From: Synoicihabitans lomoniglobus
Lineage (GTDB): Bacteria; Verrucomicrobiota; Verrucomicrobiia; Opitutales; Opitutaceae
Assembly (NCBI RefSeq): GCF_029023725.1
Contig: NZ_CP119075.1
Coordinates: forward strand, 2,475,501 to 2,539,500
Length of the DNA: 64,000 nt
Direction: 5' to 3'
Shown: piece after piece, positions 21,730 to 28,255 of the stretch
Position numbering within the stretch: the first letter of the stretch is position 1
Layout of the letters: the number at the start of each line of letters is the position of its first letter
Position numbers and translations under genes: made by a program
Notes under the pieces: generated by a model
Databases searched by the model: none
Told to the model about the DNA's origin: nothing
What the model saw: the letters and a program-made list of their open reading frames with translations, nothing else

Positions 21730-21856
21730 GCGTAGGGAGACCCTACGCACTGCGGACGCGTCAGCCAGTGCTTTTCGTCAATCGGTCGCAGGAGTTTACC
21801 ATCGGTTCCTGCACGGGAAGATTGCACCTTGAAGCATCGCGCATACGGTGCGTCCC

Positions 21857-23377
21857 ATGAGCCAAAGCGCCGAGCTTCTCACCACCAACCGCAAAGCGCT
21901 GTCGATCAATTTGGACGCGCAAAAATACGGCACGTTTGCCGAAATCGGTGCCGGCCAGGAGGTCTCGCGGTTGTTTTTCCAGGCCGGTGGCGCGGCGGGC
22001 ACCATCGCGAAATCGATCTCGGCCTACGACATGACGTTCAGCGACGAGATCTACGGCAAGGCCCCGCGCTACGTGTCCCGCGAACGGTTGGTCAACATGC
22101 TCGACCATGAATACGACCTGCTCCACCAACGTCTCGCCGAGAAACGCGGCGCCGATACCACATTTTTTGTGTTCGCCGACACCGTGGCCGCCAAAGCCTA
22201 CCGCGGTAACAACGAATGCCACGGCTGGATGGGCATGCGGTTTCAGCCCGACCCCAACTCCGAGCCCTCCGAAATCATCATCCACGTGCGGATGTGGGAT
22301 AAGGACAACCTGCTTCAACAACAGGCGCTGGGTATCGTCGGAGTAAACCTGATCTACGGCGCGTTCATGTATCGCGACGAACCGGACAAACTCATCGCAT
22401 CGTTGATGGACAACGTCGGCAACCAGCGCATCGAAGTCGACATGGCCAACCTCAGCGGACCCGCGTTTGCCAACGTCGACAATCGCCTCATGTCGCTGCA
22501 TCTGGTGCAATTCGGCCTCACCAACGCCGTTATGTTTGGTCCCAACAAGGAGGTGCTGCAGCCGTCCTCCGTGTTGCGACGCAAAGCCATCCTGGTGGAA
22601 CGCGGAAGTTTTCGCCCCGTCACGCACGTCAATGTCGACATGCTCAATTGCGCTTGCGCGCAGTTCATGCAGGAGTCCGCCGTCAAGGGGAAGGACATGA
22701 TGGTGCTGATGGAGATCACCATGAACAACCTGCTCGCCTCGGGGGATCTCGATGCCGAGGACTTCCTTTCCCGCGTCGATCTGCTCGGCGCGATCGGCTT
22801 GACCGTGCTCATCTCGAACTACCCGGAATACTACCGGCTCACTTCTTATTTCCGCCGCTACACCGATGAAATGATCGGCGTCGCCATGGGGATCAACAAC
22901 CTCCTCGAGATCTTCAACGAGAAATACTACGAGTCACTGCAAGGCGGCATTCTCGAGGCGTTCGGCCGACTGTTTCGCAATTCGGTGAAGCTTTACGTTT
23001 ATCCGATGCGTCGCACCGCTTACGACGGCTACCTCAACGCCGGGACCGACGACGCCCCGGCCGCCCCGCTCGTGGCTACGACACCGACTTTCACCTCGGA
23101 CGTCATGGTGACGGCCCGCAATCTCCAGGTCTCCGCTCACCTGCGCAATCTCTACGCGCATCTCATGGAGAACCACTACATCGACTGCATCGTCGGCTAC
23201 AACCCAGACATCCTCGACATCTTTTCGCGCGACGTGCTGCGCCGTATTCAAGTCGGGGACAACTCCTGGGAACGCATGGTGCCCGAACCGATCGTATTGG
23301 CGATCAAGGAGCACGGACTCTTCGGGCACGGTGAAACGCTGGCGGACAAGGAAATGTTGCACCCCACCGAGGACTGA
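21857..23377 (+). CDS. Conserved protein of unknown function, about 500 residues
   Basis: A 506-residue soluble-looking protein with no signal peptide or clear membrane segment. I do not recognise its family with certainty. Notable stretches are QKYGTFAEIGAGQEVSRLFF near the N-terminus, TTFFVFADTVAAKAY, NECHGWMGMRF, ALGIVGVNLIYGAFM and NVDMLNCACAQFM; these look strongly conserved in style. The start is ATG 21857 rather than the GTG at 21848. It is divergent from sppA and 76 bases upstream of the dapF-like gene, with which it could be cotranscribed. An enzymatic role involving the His/Cys-rich NECHGW segment is only a guess. Confidence 0.75.
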   Translation: MSQSAELLTTNRKALSINLDAQKYGTFAEIGAGQEVSRLFFQAGGAAGTIAKSISAYDMTFSDEIYGKAPRYVSRERLVNMLDHEYDLLHQRLAEKRGADTTFFVFADTVAAKAYRGNNECHGWMGMRFQPDPNSEPSEIIIHVRMWDKDNLLQQQALGIVGVNLIYGAFMYRDEPDKLIASLMDNVGNQRIEVDMANLSGPAFANVDNRLMSLHLVQFGLTNAVMFGPNKEVLQPSSVLRRKAILVERGSFRPVTHVNVDMLNCACAQFMQESAVKGKDMMVLMEITMNNLLASGDLDAEDFLSRVDLLGAIGLTVLISNYPEYYRLTSYFRRYTDEMIGVAMGINNLLEIFNEKYYESLQGGILEAFGRLFRNSVKLYVYPMRRTAYDGYLNAGTDDAPAAPLVATTPTFTSDVMVTARNLQVSAHLRNLYAHLMENHYIDCIVGYNPDILDIFSRDVLRRIQVGDNSWERMVPEPIVLAIKEHGLFGHGETLADKEMLHPTED

Positions 23378-23453: not shown

Positions 23454-24305
23454 ATGCGATTTCACAAATATCACGCCTTGGGCAATGACTACATCGTGCT
23501 CGATCCGGCCGACTTTCCGGATTGGGACGCTCCTTCCCGGGCGCAAACGCGGGTGATCTGCCACCGCAATTTTGGCGTGGGCTCAGATGGGATTTTATGG
23601 GGGCCGCTCCCGTCTACTTCGAGTCAGTTCGGCTTGCGCATTTTCAACCCTGATGGCTCCGAGGCCGAAAAATCCGGCAACGGTCTGCGCATCTTTTCCC
23701 GCTATCTGTGGGACTCGGGCCAAGCGACCGCCTCGCCCTTCACTATCGAAACTCCGGGCGGTGATGTCACCGCCGACATCCTCCCGCAAAACCGCCTTAT
23801 CACCGTCGATATGGGCCGGGTAAGTTTCGACAGCGACGTGATTCCGGTCCGGGGCGAAAAGCGCGACGTGCTCAACGAGTCCATCACGATCGGCGACCGC
23901 ACCTTGAAGTTCTGCGCCGCGACGATCGGTAATCCGCATTGTGTGCTACCCTTGCCTGCCATCTCTGCGGCGCTGGCGCACGAACTCGGTCCGCTGTTGG
24001 AGGTCCACCCGCAATTTCCGCACAAAACCAATGTGCAGTTCCTCGAGGTCATCGATCGCGGCAACATACGCATTGAGATCTGGGAACGCGGCGCCGGCTA
24101 CACCTTGGCGTCGGGCAGCAGTTCGAGCGCCGCCGCCGCCGTGGCGCACCGGCTCGGGTTGGTGGATGACAAACTCACCGTGCACATGCCCGGCGGAACG
24201 ATCGGCATCGAAATCGCGCCCGACTATGCCGTGCGCATGACGGGGTCGGTCAATCAGGTCGCCGTCGGGGAAATGCAACCGGACCTGTTCGAGGTCGAAG
24301 TCTGA
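23454..24305 (+). CDS. Diaminopimelate epimerase-like protein with both catalytic Cys replaced by Ser
   Basis: A 283-residue protein that aligns along its whole length with DapF, which interconverts LL- and meso-diaminopimelate. It begins MRFHKYHALGNDYIVLD and keeps the substrate-side residues: Asn11, Asn65 in FNPDGSE, Asn160 in GNPH, Asn193 in TNVQF, and Glu211-Arg212 in WERGAG. The two catalytic Cys are gone: the CGNG Cys is Ser74 (EKSGNGLR, codon TCC) and the ACGTG Cys is Ser220 (LASGSSSSA, codon TCG). The two-base Cys/Cys mechanism cannot operate as known, so this may be a paralogue with another substrate or reaction, or an unusual epimerase. The symbol dapF is withheld for that reason. 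Confidence 0.85.
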   Translation: MRFHKYHALGNDYIVLDPADFPDWDAPSRAQTRVICHRNFGVGSDGILWGPLPSTSSQFGLRIFNPDGSEAEKSGNGLRIFSRYLWDSGQATASPFTIETPGGDVTADILPQNRLITVDMGRVSFDSDVIPVRGEKRDVLNESITIGDRTLKFCAATIGNPHCVLPLPAISAALAHELGPLLEVHPQFPHKTNVQFLEVIDRGNIRIEIWERGAGYTLASGSSSSAAAAVAHRLGLVDDKLTVHMPGGTIGIEIAPDYAVRMTGSVNQVAVGEMQPDLFEVEV

Positions 24306-24987: not shown

Positions 24988-25157
24988 AGTAACGAAGAGA
25001 CGTGGAAGCGACGGAATCGTAACCAACCTCTCTGCGGATGCCAGCGCAGGGGGTGTTTTATGTTCAATCCGGCTCATTCTTACGGATTGCCCGCCCAACT
25101 TCTGCCAATCAATGTCGCTTCCCTGTGCTTGGATGGATTGCTGATATCACCCGGATC

Positions 25158-26612
25158 ATGTGGGGTTTCCTCTATTGGAACACCCGCAAATCGATCTATC
25201 GCGCTCGCGCCCGACGAGACCGTTGCCCGTGCCAAAACCCCTCCGATTCGGGCCGCGCCGGTGAGACCGGTTGCGATGCCGCGCTGCACTACGCCAATCC
25301 CGCTCGCTTTCGGGTCGTTTGTCCGCTGCTAAAACCGGACGCCAACGGCATGATGAAGTGCAGTGTGGCGGCCGCCGACGTGAGGCCGTTTTGGGGTCGT
25401 CCCATCGCGCTCGGCCTCTTCCTGCTGATCGGAGGTTACGCCGCCACGGTCGGCGCGGTCTACTTCGGCATGCGTCACATCGGATATCCCGTGACGGTGG
25501 AGATGATCGCAATTCCGCAAAACTGGCGTGATATCGACCAAGCCCGTTCGACCTATTTCCTGCAAAAAGCGGAGGAATCCTACCAAGCGGGAAAACTCAA
25601 CGAAGCGGTCATGTCCTTGTCGTTGGCTTACGAATACGATCCGACCAACTACGATGCGGGTTTGTCGTTGGCCAAACTCTGGCAAGCAGGTCGCTCCGAC
25701 ATGTCGAACCTGCTCTACGAACGCCTGATGACCGATCATCCCGAGCAACAGCGACGCACGGCCCAGACGTGGTTGCGGGCCCTTCTGCCGCGCGCCGATT
25801 ATTCCGCTATCGAGGAACTCGCGGCCGTCGCGTTTGAGTTCGATCCCGATTTCACGCCCGCCTGGATTCACGCCCTGCTCTTTGCCAATGAGCGCACGCA
25901 GAACACCGCGCTCCTCACCAAGCTCCTGCAAAACAAGGCCACTTATTCTCCGGGCGTGCGCGAGGTGCTCACGCTCGAAACCGAAATCCGCGCCCGCCCC
26001 GGGCAGTTTGGGCAAGCCTTGCTGGGGCATCCGCCGAAACCGGAGACCCCGGGTTTCGTGGTATATTACCAACTGCGTCGATTGATCGAAATGGGCGATG
26101 CGGAATCGGCCCTGCGTCTGCTCGAAACGCTGCAGACCCGACTCTCCGACCGCGACCGGATTTCCCTGCAACTGCAGGCCTATTCATCCCAGCCGGAATT
26201 TGCCGCCTCCTACGCGCGCCTGCTGGAACAGTTGGTCAACATCCCCCCCAGTCTGGTGCAGATCGAGTTGCTTTGCGCGCATCTGATCGCCCACCCCCAG
26301 CCCGAGTTCTACCGCATCGTCCGCGCCCGGATCGATCCGATGGAGCTCACCAAGCCGACCGAGCAAATCGCCGGTCTCATCGCGCTTTTTTCCCTCGCCG
26401 CTTCGCATACCGACGGTGACCGCATGGAACAGTTGGCTGCCATTCTGCGCCAGCAAACCGGCACGCGCTTCAACGCCCTGTCCGCCGTGCAGGCCATGGT
26501 GCGCGCGCCCGACCAGGTATTCGTCGAGTCCGTGCTTCCCACGCTGCAACCGCTTTCGCTCGAATTGGTCTACGCCATGTTGGAAAGATTTGAGCGCCCG
26601 AAAACACGATGA
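25158..26612 (+). CDS. TPR-rich membrane protein with Cys-rich N-terminal domain, paired with exosortase
   Basis: A 484-residue protein. Residues 1-80 are cytoplasmic and hold five Cys (23, 25, 39, 55, 68) in a pattern like a small metal-binding domain (RCPCQNPSDSG). One transmembrane helix follows (about 83-104), then a periplasmic tetratricopeptide region (about 125-480). The start ATG 25158 keeps the conserved-looking N-terminus MWGFLYWNTRKSIYRAR; the frame is open further upstream but without such features. Its stop overlaps the exosortase ATG by 4 bases (ATGA), so it probably acts with the exosortase, perhaps presenting or sensing substrates. Confidence 0.72.
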   Translation: MWGFLYWNTRKSIYRARARRDRCPCQNPSDSGRAGETGCDAALHYANPARFRVVCPLLKPDANGMMKCSVAAADVRPFWGRPIALGLFLLIGGYAATVGAVYFGMRHIGYPVTVEMIAIPQNWRDIDQARSTYFLQKAEESYQAGKLNEAVMSLSLAYEYDPTNYDAGLSLAKLWQAGRSDMSNLLYERLMTDHPEQQRRTAQTWLRALLPRADYSAIEELAAVAFEFDPDFTPAWIHALLFANERTQNTALLTKLLQNKATYSPGVREVLTLETEIRARPGQFGQALLGHPPKPETPGFVVYYQLRRLIEMGDAESALRLLETLQTRLSDRDRISLQLQAYSSQPEFAASYARLLEQLVNIPPSLVQIELLCAHLIAHPQPEFYRIVRARIDPMELTKPTEQIAGLIALFSLAASHTDGDRMEQLAAILRQQTGTRFNALSAVQAMVRAPDQVFVESVLPTLQPLSLELVYAMLERFERPKTR

Positions 26613-28255
26613 CTTTGGCCGCCCGACCCTGGCGTGAGCTGCCGACGTTGTTGAGTAAAACCGGCACGTCGGCGTGGGCCTTGGCGGTTCTGTTCCTTTT
26701 CCTGCTCGGCACCTGGCTTTACCGCATCATCCCGGAGTGGTCGTCCAACCCCGACCTTTCCCACGGCTTTTTCGCCCCGATTCTTTTTGGACTTCTACTC
26801 CAGGAAAGCCGCCAACGCGGCCCTCGGCGATTCTTGCCCGCAAACGCCGTAAACCTCGGTGTGTGCGGAGGCCTGGTAGCTCTGAGTTTGGTCACCCTGC
26901 TGACGGCCTGCCTCTTTGCGGCCGGACTGGATTGGTCCCACTCCATGGTGGAGTTTCTCTTAGGCTGCAGCGTGTCGGGCGCAGTGGCGGCGCTCATGCT
27001 GTATTTTTCCCTGCAGCCGTATCGCCTGATCCCGTTCAACTGGGTGGCCGTGGTCGCGCTTTTGATGTGGGTGCTGAGTCTGCCCATCCCTCCCGGCACT
27101 TACAGCTCGTTGACCTTGGGACTTCAGCTGTGGGTGACCGAACGGGTTTTGGGCGCGCTGCATATCCTCGGCATACCCGCGATTCGGAACGGCAACCTCA
27201 TCGAACTCGCCACCACCACCGTGGGCGTCGAGGAAGCCTGTAGCGGCGTGCGCAGTCTGCTCTCGTGCATCTTTGCCGGATTTTTCTTTTCGGCCGCGTT
27301 CGTGCGTCATTGGGGCGGTCGACTCCTGCTGCTCGTGCTCGCCCCCCTGCTGGCGATCGTGATGAATTTCGTGCGCTCGCTCACTCTCACGCTCTTGGCC
27401 AACAAGGGGGTCGACATCAGCGGTATGTGGCACGATGCGACGGGTTTTGCCATATTGGGCGTCACTGCGCTGCTCCTCGCGGGCCTGGCGTTGCTGTTGG
27501 AAAAATTCGAGTCCACCACCGCGTCCACCCCGGCGACGGACGCCGCCGCCCCGGGCGTATCCAATCAGCCCCTACCCCGTAATATTCGCCGAGGCAGCCG
27601 CATTCTCGCCACCGGCTTCGGCCTGGCAACGGGTTGCGTGGTGTTTTTCTTCTTCATGACCCGACCGGCTCCCCCCGGGAATGATGCCGTGCCCGATGTG
27701 CTGGCCCTCATGCCGGCCAATCCTCCCGGCTGGCGCATTGCGACCAGTGGCGATCTCTATCAATTTGCCGATATTCTCGAGACCGAACATCTGGGCCAAC
27801 GCATCTATCTGCGCAACGACCCCCAGGGCAATTTGATCCAAATTACGGTCTACATCGCCTATTGGTCACCGGGGCAAACCGCCGTGAGCACCGTGGCGTC
27901 CCACACACCCGACGCCTGCTGGCCGGGCAACGGGTGGGATCCGGTGCAGACTGATTTTACCACGGTCAATCTCCCTTTGGCCCAACGCGAATTGCATCGG
28001 GCGGAGTATCGGATTTTCGACAACAAACGACTCTCCCAGCACGTCTGGTTTTGGCACTCCTACGACCGGCGTGTGATTCGTGAATTCAATCCACGACGCC
28101 CGCTCGATCTACTCGCGTCGGTCATGGAATTCGGCGTGCGCAGTCAAGGTGAGCAAATGTTCGTCCGCCTGACCAGCAACCGCCCCTGGGCCGACATCGC
28201 GCAAGAACCATTGGTCGAGGAGATCTTTGACCGCCTCCAACCCTACGGCATCTAG
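26609..28255 (+). CDS. Exosortase fused to an EpsI domain
   Basis: A 548-residue protein. Residues 1-310 are a multi-pass exosortase, the transpeptidase thought to cut and anchor proteins with PEP-CTERM-type sorting tails. The proposed catalytic residues are all present: Cys211 in EEACSGVRSL, Arg256 in NFVRSLTLTLL, His275 in MWHDATGF. Residues about 340-548 form an EpsI-type periplasmic domain (YIAYWSPGQ, HTPDACWPGNGW), commonly fused to or encoded next to exosortases of polysaccharide-linked systems. It is translationally coupled to the TPR gene and followed by a 29-residue membrane peptide. No sorted substrate with a recognisable tail is in this window. Confidence 0.93.
   Translation: MTLAARPWRELPTLLSKTGTSAWALAVLFLFLLGTWLYRIIPEWSSNPDLSHGFFAPILFGLLLQESRQRGPRRFLPANAVNLGVCGGLVALSLVTLLTACLFAAGLDWSHSMVEFLLGCSVSGAVAALMLYFSLQPYRLIPFNWVAVVALLMWVLSLPIPPGTYSSLTLGLQLWVTERVLGALHILGIPAIRNGNLIELATTTVGVEEACSGVRSLLSCIFAGFFFSAAFVRHWGGRLLLLVLAPLLAIVMNFVRSLTLTLLANKGVDISGMWHDATGFAILGVTALLLAGLALLLEKFESTTASTPATDAAAPGVSNQPLPRNIRRGSRILATGFGLATGCVVFFFFMTRPAPPGNDAVPDVLALMPANPPGWRIATSGDLYQFADILETEHLGQRIYLRNDPQGNLIQITVYIAYWSPGQTAVSTVASHTPDACWPGNGWDPVQTDFTTVNLPLAQRELHRAEYRIFDNKRLSQHVWFWHSYDRRVIREFNPRRPLDLLASVMEFGVRSQGEQMFVRLTSNRPWADIAQEPLVEEIFDRLQPYGI

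Follow-up and report, generated by a model that had tools for sequence, protein, structure and literature searches.

The dapF gene and its product

The window analyzed here is a 64,000-nucleotide stretch of the Synoicihabitans lomoniglobus genome (contig NZ_CP119075.1, positions 2,475,501 to 2,539,500). It carries a gene of the dapF type, encoding a homologue of diaminopimelate (DAP) epimerase in which both catalytic cysteines are replaced by serines, Ser74 and Ser220 (Table 1). The predicted protein belongs to the family defined by PF01678 (184 bits; cut-off 34.7) and is recognized by TIGR00652, the curated DapF equivalog model (224 bits; cut-off 114.65). Its score with NF038284, the model of the bifunctional DapF/glutamate racemase, was 60.9 bits against a cut-off of 350. 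The solved structures closest to it in sequence are those of DapF, the best phmmer match being 8qzy (E 6.5e-53). Similarity to DapF over the full length of the protein, as claimed in an earlier note prepared from the DNA sequence alone, was thus confirmed.

The same note had placed serines at both catalytic positions, and this reading is supported by their codons and by phmmer alignments to three solved structures, in which Ser74 and Ser220 fall on the two conserved catalytic cysteines. The pocket residues that it listed as retained (Asn11, Asn65, Asn160, Asn193, Glu211 and Arg212) are all present in the translated open reading frame (ORF). In DapF of Anabaena the matching residues hold DAP (PMC12039745). 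The window protein therefore has the DAP-binding residues of a DapF, but its catalytic positions are not the two cysteines that form the thiol/thiolate pair, so we place it outside canonical DapF, in a separate Ser/Ser class that is homologous to DapF and, judged by genome content, works like it. Since the protein passes both TIGR00652 and PF01678, automatic annotation would presumably name it DapF.

Distribution and origin of the Ser/Ser class

Homologues of at least 200 amino acids (aa) were read at both catalytic positions after removal of copies of the window protein, identical proteins and L052 (Ser at position 74, second site uncovered). The resulting set of 257 distinct proteins, E. coli DapF included, comprised 182 Ser/Ser and 75 Cys/Cys proteins and no mixed ones. 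Invariance of the Ser/Ser class at positions 74 and 220 holds by definition, and 69 of its 182 members come from a scan whose patterns require the serine motifs and are thus uninformative on frequency. The Ser/Ser state is kept down to about 43% identity with the window protein.

Within 57 related genomes (host included), a match was found in 51, of which 46 were of the Ser/Ser type and five were distant Cys/Cys proteins; six genomes had neither. Both serines were read in 44 of the 46 Ser/Ser-type relatives, Ser74 only in one, and the remaining one is an unread fragment. None of the 57 genomes contained both forms. In a broader sample of the phylum, 351 of 387 genomes gave a match. All 82 best matches at E ≤ 1e-57 were read and proved to be Ser/Ser, and the 35 proteins read among the 269 weaker matches (E > 1e-57; 234 unread) were all Cys/Cys. 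A second phylum, reached via L219 (Sedimentisphaerales), gave matches in 300 of 343 genomes; five of the 33 best matches read were Ser/Ser and 28 Cys/Cys, a ratio drawn mostly from the strongest matches (267 genomes unread), with the Ser/Ser ones coming from bins in which contamination is possible. A scan of named records returned 80 loci, most of them in Opitutaceae or elsewhere in the Verrucomicrobiota. The genomes covered include the complete one of IMCC26134, for which TIGR00652 gave a single match, of the Ser/Ser type. All 80 loci were Ser/Ser, although this figure is not independent because the scan patterns demanded the serine motifs.

In a maximum-likelihood tree of 47 of the 257 proteins, calculated after removal of eight signature columns, the Ser/Ser proteins lie on one side of one branch (support 100/100), corresponding to one change. 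Midpoint rooting, in which the root itself is not inferred, nested them within the Cys/Cys proteins on a long stem. The Ser/Ser form is a single clade, and the grouping that the earlier note had proposed to look for among DapF homologues does exist. Of that note's emphasis, the Ser/Ser state itself stands, while the picture of a single unusual gene does not, as the state is clade-wide. A lone pseudogene was rejected on the same ground.

The serines are specified by both serine codon families. In 161 Ser/Ser proteins other than that of the window, position 74 is encoded by TCN in 98 cases and AGY in 63, and position 220 by TCN in 140 and AGY in 21. The use of TCN and AGY at both sites speaks for selection on serine itself. 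A sequencing or assembly artefact, which the earlier note had also judged unlikely, has a negligible probability in view of these codons and of the 182 Ser/Ser proteins from many genomes, with no mixed protein among the homologues; nothing was found in its favour, and sequencing error was rejected.

Two proteins of the class, L088 and L089 (G252, G164), are longer, about 324-330 aa as cut. Their tblastn match starts only at residue 53-60, as if split by an insert, and several other Ser/Ser genomes are similar.

Pathway content of the host genome

L,L-DAP is the product of DapL, and meso-DAP is needed by LysA and by MurE of the meso-DAP type. Where these enzymes occur together, some epimerization of L,L-DAP is therefore required. 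The host genome (one contig of 5,926,369 bases, 98.85% complete) encodes DapL (TIGR03542, 568 bits), LysA (TIGR01048, 457 bits) and MurE (TIGR01085, 507 bits), all above the respective cut-offs; the first of these answers the question of a dapL gene raised in the earlier note. The MurE protein contains the DNPR motif, which we take to be the mark of an enzyme adding meso-DAP.

A search of the host genome with PF01678 gave two domain matches, both inside the window gene, and no second DapF homologue was found. A search for DAP dehydrogenase (TIGR01921), the enzyme known to bypass DapF, likewise found none in this genome. A second canonical DapF and DAP dehydrogenase as the source of meso-DAP were both rejected on these grounds. 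The earlier note had named the finding of a sole DapF homologue in the organism, joined with normal growth of a complemented dapF mutant, as a result that would speak against a new function; the first part of this is what the PF01678 search returned. From genome content and sequence, the window gene most probably encodes the working DAP epimerase of the organism, by whatever bases it acts.

DAP dehydrogenase content, gene neighbourhood and genomes with two forms

Genomes with a Ser/Ser protein would be expected to contain a different source of meso-DAP if that protein did something other than epimerize DAP, and mostly no such source is present. DAP dehydrogenase scored above the cut-off in three of the 46 Ser/Ser relatives and in none of five further Ser/Ser genomes (3/51). 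Among 24 genomes without a DapF match it did so in 17 (Fisher p = 9e-9, calculated without regard to relatedness). The latter figure combines 17/21 with 0/3 for G018, G041 and G052, all at most 80% complete; by group code the 17 positive genomes represent four families, one of which accounts for 12. Absence of DapF was defined here by tblastn with a Ser/Ser protein (E ≤ 0.001), and a TIGR00652 search of four tblastn-negative genomes (G027, G033, G195 and G051) found no DapF in them. The phylum sample held 36 unmatched genomes by tblastn, 16 of which lay outside the dehydrogenase test. As none of the five Cys/Cys relatives has the dehydrogenase, Ser/Ser genomes behave like Cys/Cys DapF genomes in this respect.

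Neither DapF nor DAP dehydrogenase was found in G027, G033, G147 and G218, and G027 (97% complete) has a DapL above the cut-off. These four genomes may have assembly gaps or may reach meso-DAP by a third route.

The surroundings of 181 Ser/Ser loci (63 of at least 8 kb) were compared with E. coli DapA and DapB and with the host DapL, LysA and MurE. In L205 a Ser/Ser dapF forms the one-strand arrangement dapF-dapA-dapB-folK, in L214 the order is dapA-dapB-ruvA-dapF, again on one strand, and in L158 dapL lies about 6 kb from the Ser/Ser dapF. Among 74 Cys/Cys loci, dapL (50-58% identity) was present in seven and dapA-dapB in L226.

Both forms occur together in at least six genomes (G389, G162, G266, G358, G425 and G426), a lower bound, as double genomes were sought with TIGR00652 in 14 genomes. 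In G389 the genes for the Ser/Ser and Cys/Cys proteins (L082, L083) share a 514-kb contig, with about 140 kb between them, and the ERG motif is intact in both proteins, so a replacement in progress is possible. The Cys/Cys copies of G162, G266 and G358 (L235, L234 and L233) have Phe in place of Arg212 (FEFG for YERG/WERG), and judging by this substitution they possibly act on a different substrate. G425 and G426 are metagenome bins and possibly mixed.

These genomes bear on the idea that the Ser/Ser protein has the DapF fold but acts on a different substrate or catalyzes a different reaction, such as ornithine racemization or a dehydration/elimination, with meso-DAP made by another route or not at all. 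The presence of two forms side by side fits it. So does the fact that in part of the superfamily a change of the catalytic pair tracks a change of reaction, as in the Cys/Thr and Ser/Thr dehydratases (PMC4113996), and in the Opitutaceae cells tested ornithine is major and DAP scarce (PMC5303756). The genome slot and the dapA-dapB neighbourhood of Ser/Ser dapF genes argue the other way, and the loss of Arg212 from the Cys/Cys copy in three of the six double genomes makes the Ser/Ser copy the likelier DapF there. Ornithine was rejected as the likely substrate because the residues of the DAP pocket that serve the distal carboxylate are kept. We consider this explanation improbable. Of the choices offered in the earlier note, a new reaction or substrate is accordingly disfavoured, and the unorthodox epimerase is supported by the sole DapF, the pathway content and slot, the pocket and the dapA-dapB neighbours.

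The ORF directly upstream of the window dapF had no Pfam match over its length and no NCBIfam match from position 21857. Its family recurs at 19 gene positions near dapF among loci whose genes were called crudely (opposite-strand ORFs were often picked in the high-GC DNA, and the caller retrieved dapF itself from 45 of the 72 loci). Downstream, an exosortase of the EpsH family with a C-terminal DUF3485/EpsI-like part is preceded by an ORF with a weak TPR match, below the cut-off.

Residues that changed with the cysteines

The exchange of the catalytic residues is accompanied by further differences between the two classes (Table 1). Only Ser74, Ser220, Ser223, Ile80 and Gln195 are both class-specific and fully invariant among the 27 tabulated positions; Gln195 occurs in 182/182 Ser/Ser and 0/75 Cys/Cys proteins. 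L243 and L271, which branch deepest within the Ser/Ser part of the tree, have Leu208 and Glu216 and yet retain Lys73, Ile80 and Ser223, which suggests that the 208/216 pair was refined later. By this comparison of sequences, the core of the class looks like Lys73-Ser74, Ile80, Ser220 and Ser223. L045, encoded in a 0.9-Mb genome (G042), has Ile73 and is the sole Ser/Ser protein read without Lys73; it also forms the longest end branch of the tree.

In Anabaena DapF the backbone amides of Gly76 and Gly227 are close enough to the catalytic sulfurs for hydrogen bonding (PMC12039745). The latter glycine is located three residues past the second cysteine, which is the position of Ser223 in the window protein. 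One dehydratase from the proline racemase superfamily has a natural catalytic serine, which the +3 residue keeps in position through its side chain and amide (PMC4113996). The spacing of Ser220 and Ser223 offers a suggestive parallel to that pair.

Table 1. Coordinates of the dapF gene, of codons for catalytic, pocket and class-specific residues, and of neighbouring ORFs in the window
Feature	Position	Strand	Remarks
Ser/Ser DapF-type gene	23454..24305	+	ATG start, 283 aa plus stop
Asn11, DAP pocket	23484..23486	+	N in 180/182 Ser/Ser (one C, one gap) and 75/75 Cys/Cys
Asn65, DAP pocket	23646..23648	+	N in 181/182 Ser/Ser
Lys73, just before first catalytic position	23670..23672	+	K in 181/182 Ser/Ser, 0/75 Cys/Cys (Met in 70/75)
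Ser74 (TCC), first catalytic Cys position	23673..23675	+	directly precedes helix 75-87 in the model
Ile80, at the near-invariant Cys of GNGxRC	23691..23693	+	I in 182/182 Ser/Ser; C in 72/75 Cys/Cys
Asn160, DAP pocket	23931..23933	+	N in 182/182 Ser/Ser
Asn193, DAP pocket	24030..24032	+	N in 182/182 Ser/Ser
Glu208, class-specific	24075..24077	+	E in 178/182 Ser/Ser; R or K in 75/75 Cys/Cys
Glu211-Arg212, DAP pocket	24084..24089	+	both in 182/182 Ser/Ser
Tyr216, class-specific	24099..24101	+	Y in 178/182 Ser/Ser, 0/75 Cys/Cys (E in 62/75)
Ser220 (TCG), second catalytic Cys position	24111..24113	+	directly precedes helix 221-233 in the model
Ser223, +3 from second catalytic residue	24120..24122	+	S in 182/182 Ser/Ser; G in 75/75 Cys/Cys
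ORF directly upstream of dapF	21848..23377	+	509 aa
ORF preceding the exosortase gene	25038..26612		524 aa
Exosortase gene	26609..28255	+	

Predicted structure and comparison with known enzymes

An AlphaFold2 model of the window protein, built with 79 aligned sequences, reached a mean predicted local distance difference test score (pLDDT) of 96.7 and a predicted template modelling score (pTM) of 0.92. It has the two-domain fold of DapF, and each catalytic serine stands directly before a helix, as do the catalytic cysteines of DapF and HisR (PMC12039745, PMC11602996). The 14 best fold matches in the PDB are DapF structures, with template modelling (TM) scores by query of 0.84-0.91. Among the 50 PDB matches listed, DapF and 7vdy occupy ranks 1-26 (25-38% identity) and structures of the proline family start at rank 29 (12-17% identity), so that the proline racemase family is not the closest fold relative within this list. 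The matches include the H. influenzae DapF mutants C73S (2q9h) and C217S (2q9j).

The window protein resembles canonical DapF (TIGR00652, PF01678; E. coli b3809, H. influenzae 1gqz, Anabaena 9mro) in its fold and length, in the DAP-binding residues, in the placement of the catalytic positions at helix N-caps and, by genome content, in its place in the pathway. It differs in both catalytic residues and, relative to the usual residues of Cys/Cys proteins, has Lys for Met73, Ile for Cys80, Glu for Arg208, Tyr for Glu216 and Ser for Gly223, with Gln at position 195. The Ser/Cys 4-hydroxyproline 2-epimerase and the Ser/Thr trans-3-hydroxyproline dehydratase (PMC4113996; 4lb0, 4k7g) share a distant common fold and a natural serine at one position, but this serine is the only one and faces Cys or Thr, the substrates are different and identity is 15-17%. 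Engineered Cys-to-Ser forms of the histidine racemases HisR and CntK, like the two H. influenzae mutants, also have the fold and a serine at one position; these are laboratory single-site mutants, whereas the natural class has both sites exchanged together with further class-specific changes. O-ureidoserine racemase (7vdy) has the same fold as the window protein, and PddB and the bifunctional DapF of Chlamydia are reported as DapF-like racemases of other substrates. None of the three is known to depart from the Cys/Cys pair. No report of a Ser/Ser DapF was found in the literature searched, most subscription journals being outside its coverage. Set against the Ser/Cys and Ser/Thr enzymes of the superfamily, a double Cys-to-Ser exchange with retained DAP pocket and pathway slot appears new.

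A DapF homologue without the two cysteines might serve another purpose. The DapF of E. coli reportedly has a second role, binding RppH (PMC4227774), and a catalytically dead or near-dead DapF could likewise act, for example, in protein binding, with meso-DAP coming from elsewhere. Strongly lowered turnover after Cys-to-Ser exchange in Cys/Cys scaffolds (PMC11602996) is compatible with this. A dead enzyme would drift at its pocket and helix N-caps, though, and conservation of both in the Ser/Ser class is no looser than among the Cys/Cys proteins. This speaks against such a role, as does the failure to find another DapF or a DAP dehydrogenase in the host genome. We regard a dead enzyme as very improbable.

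Proposed mechanism

In the pathway suggested by the genome content, the window protein would convert L,L-DAP supplied by DapL into meso-DAP for LysA (lysine) and MurE (peptidoglycan), both catalytic thiols having presumably been exchanged for hydroxyls in one clade along with a fixed set of neighbouring changes. The DapF fold would close on DAP, with the alpha-carbon of the substrate held between two helix N-termini. Ser74 and Ser220 may then act from opposite faces as the acid/base pair of a 1,1-proton transfer, one serine as an alkoxide stabilized by the helix dipole and the other as the alcohol. Ser223 stands in place of a glycine that, in a Cys/Cys enzyme, touches the catalytic sulfur through its backbone amide. 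It could offset the poorer acidity of serine, and Lys73, located beside Ser74 in a loop curving round the substrate, might do likewise. Taken as a whole, the statement that the window gene encodes a working DAP epimerase with the serines as its bases is one towards which we lean.

A DAP epimerase in which the serines are not both bases is unlikely, but less so than the other alternatives considered here. Lys73, an ordered water or Tyr216 could move the proton on one face, with a serine helping to position the substrate and the water. The near-restriction of Lys73 to the Ser/Ser class (Table 1) is in keeping with this. In the Cys/Cys enzyme of Anabaena there is no basic residue closer than 4 Å to the catalytic sulfurs (PMC12039745), which makes a lysine next to a catalytic position a genuine change in design. 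However, L045 has Ile73, the deep members L243 and L271 have Glu216 instead of Tyr, and neither Lys73 nor Tyr216 belongs to the class-specific positions that are fully invariant.

Several observations weigh against a Ser/Ser DAP epimerase. Turnover of the HisR variants C67S and C209S was "greatly reduced" (PMC11602996), and Cys-to-Ser mutants of Cys/Cys relatives were chosen for crystallization because their catalysis is hindered (PMC12039745). Three Lacunisphaera strains and Opitutus terrae, all Opitutaceae, had a DAP content almost tenfold below that of E. coli, with ornithine equal or more abundant, and thin-layer chromatography detected no DL-DAP in the three Lacunisphaera strains (PMC5303756). 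No DAP genes were found among the scanned neighbours of the window dapF, and pathway neighbours are rarer near Ser/Ser genes (3/181) than near Cys/Cys ones (at least 8/74), in loci whose lengths differ. Three of the 46 Ser/Ser relatives also carry DAP dehydrogenase, and the double genomes described above count on the same side. In seven of the 24 genomes without a DapF match, DAP dehydrogenase is missing as well and the meso-DAP slot can thus look empty, and G027, with DapL and neither of the two enzymes found, indicates that gene absence has blind spots.

The Lacunisphaera report lists a DapF for strain IG16b (PMC5303756). A slow Ser/Ser epimerase may be one possible cause of the low DAP and high ornithine of Opitutaceae cells.

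With these points taken into account, we still incline, if only slightly, to the view that the lineage turned a thiol/thiolate epimerase into an oxygen-based Ser/Ser one, backed by Ser223 and Lys73, which would remove a proton of pKa about 29, a step so far ascribed to cysteine thiolates, would be insensitive to thiol oxidation and thiol-reactive inhibitors, and would be hidden by public annotation models under the DapF name.

Significance of the Ser/Ser class

The accepted explanation of cofactor-free racemases invokes cysteine thiolates placed at helix N-termini, and DapF is a standard example as well as an antibiotic target (PMC12039745, PMC8142540). A natural, clade-wide Ser/Ser DapF in the same metabolic slot would be an evolutionary experiment on this thiolate explanation. 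The class also reveals which changes accompany the swap (Ser223, Lys73, Ile80 and Gln195), something that single mutants could not do.

Covalent inhibitors of DapF attack its catalytic thiols (PMC12039745, PMC8142540), and the Corynebacterium glutamicum enzyme is inactivated by peroxide (PMC5296763). If active, a Ser/Ser DapF should withstand peroxide, aziridino-DAP and iodoacetamide. The class is at the same time a warning that the curated DapF model TIGR00652 admits proteins without the catalytic cysteines.

For the Opitutaceae, the Ser/Ser DapF may provide a lead on the low DAP of their cells. For the DapF family, it raises the question of how an enzyme with both "indispensable" cysteines changed to serines would still work, and Ser223, Lys73 and Ile80 are the leads.

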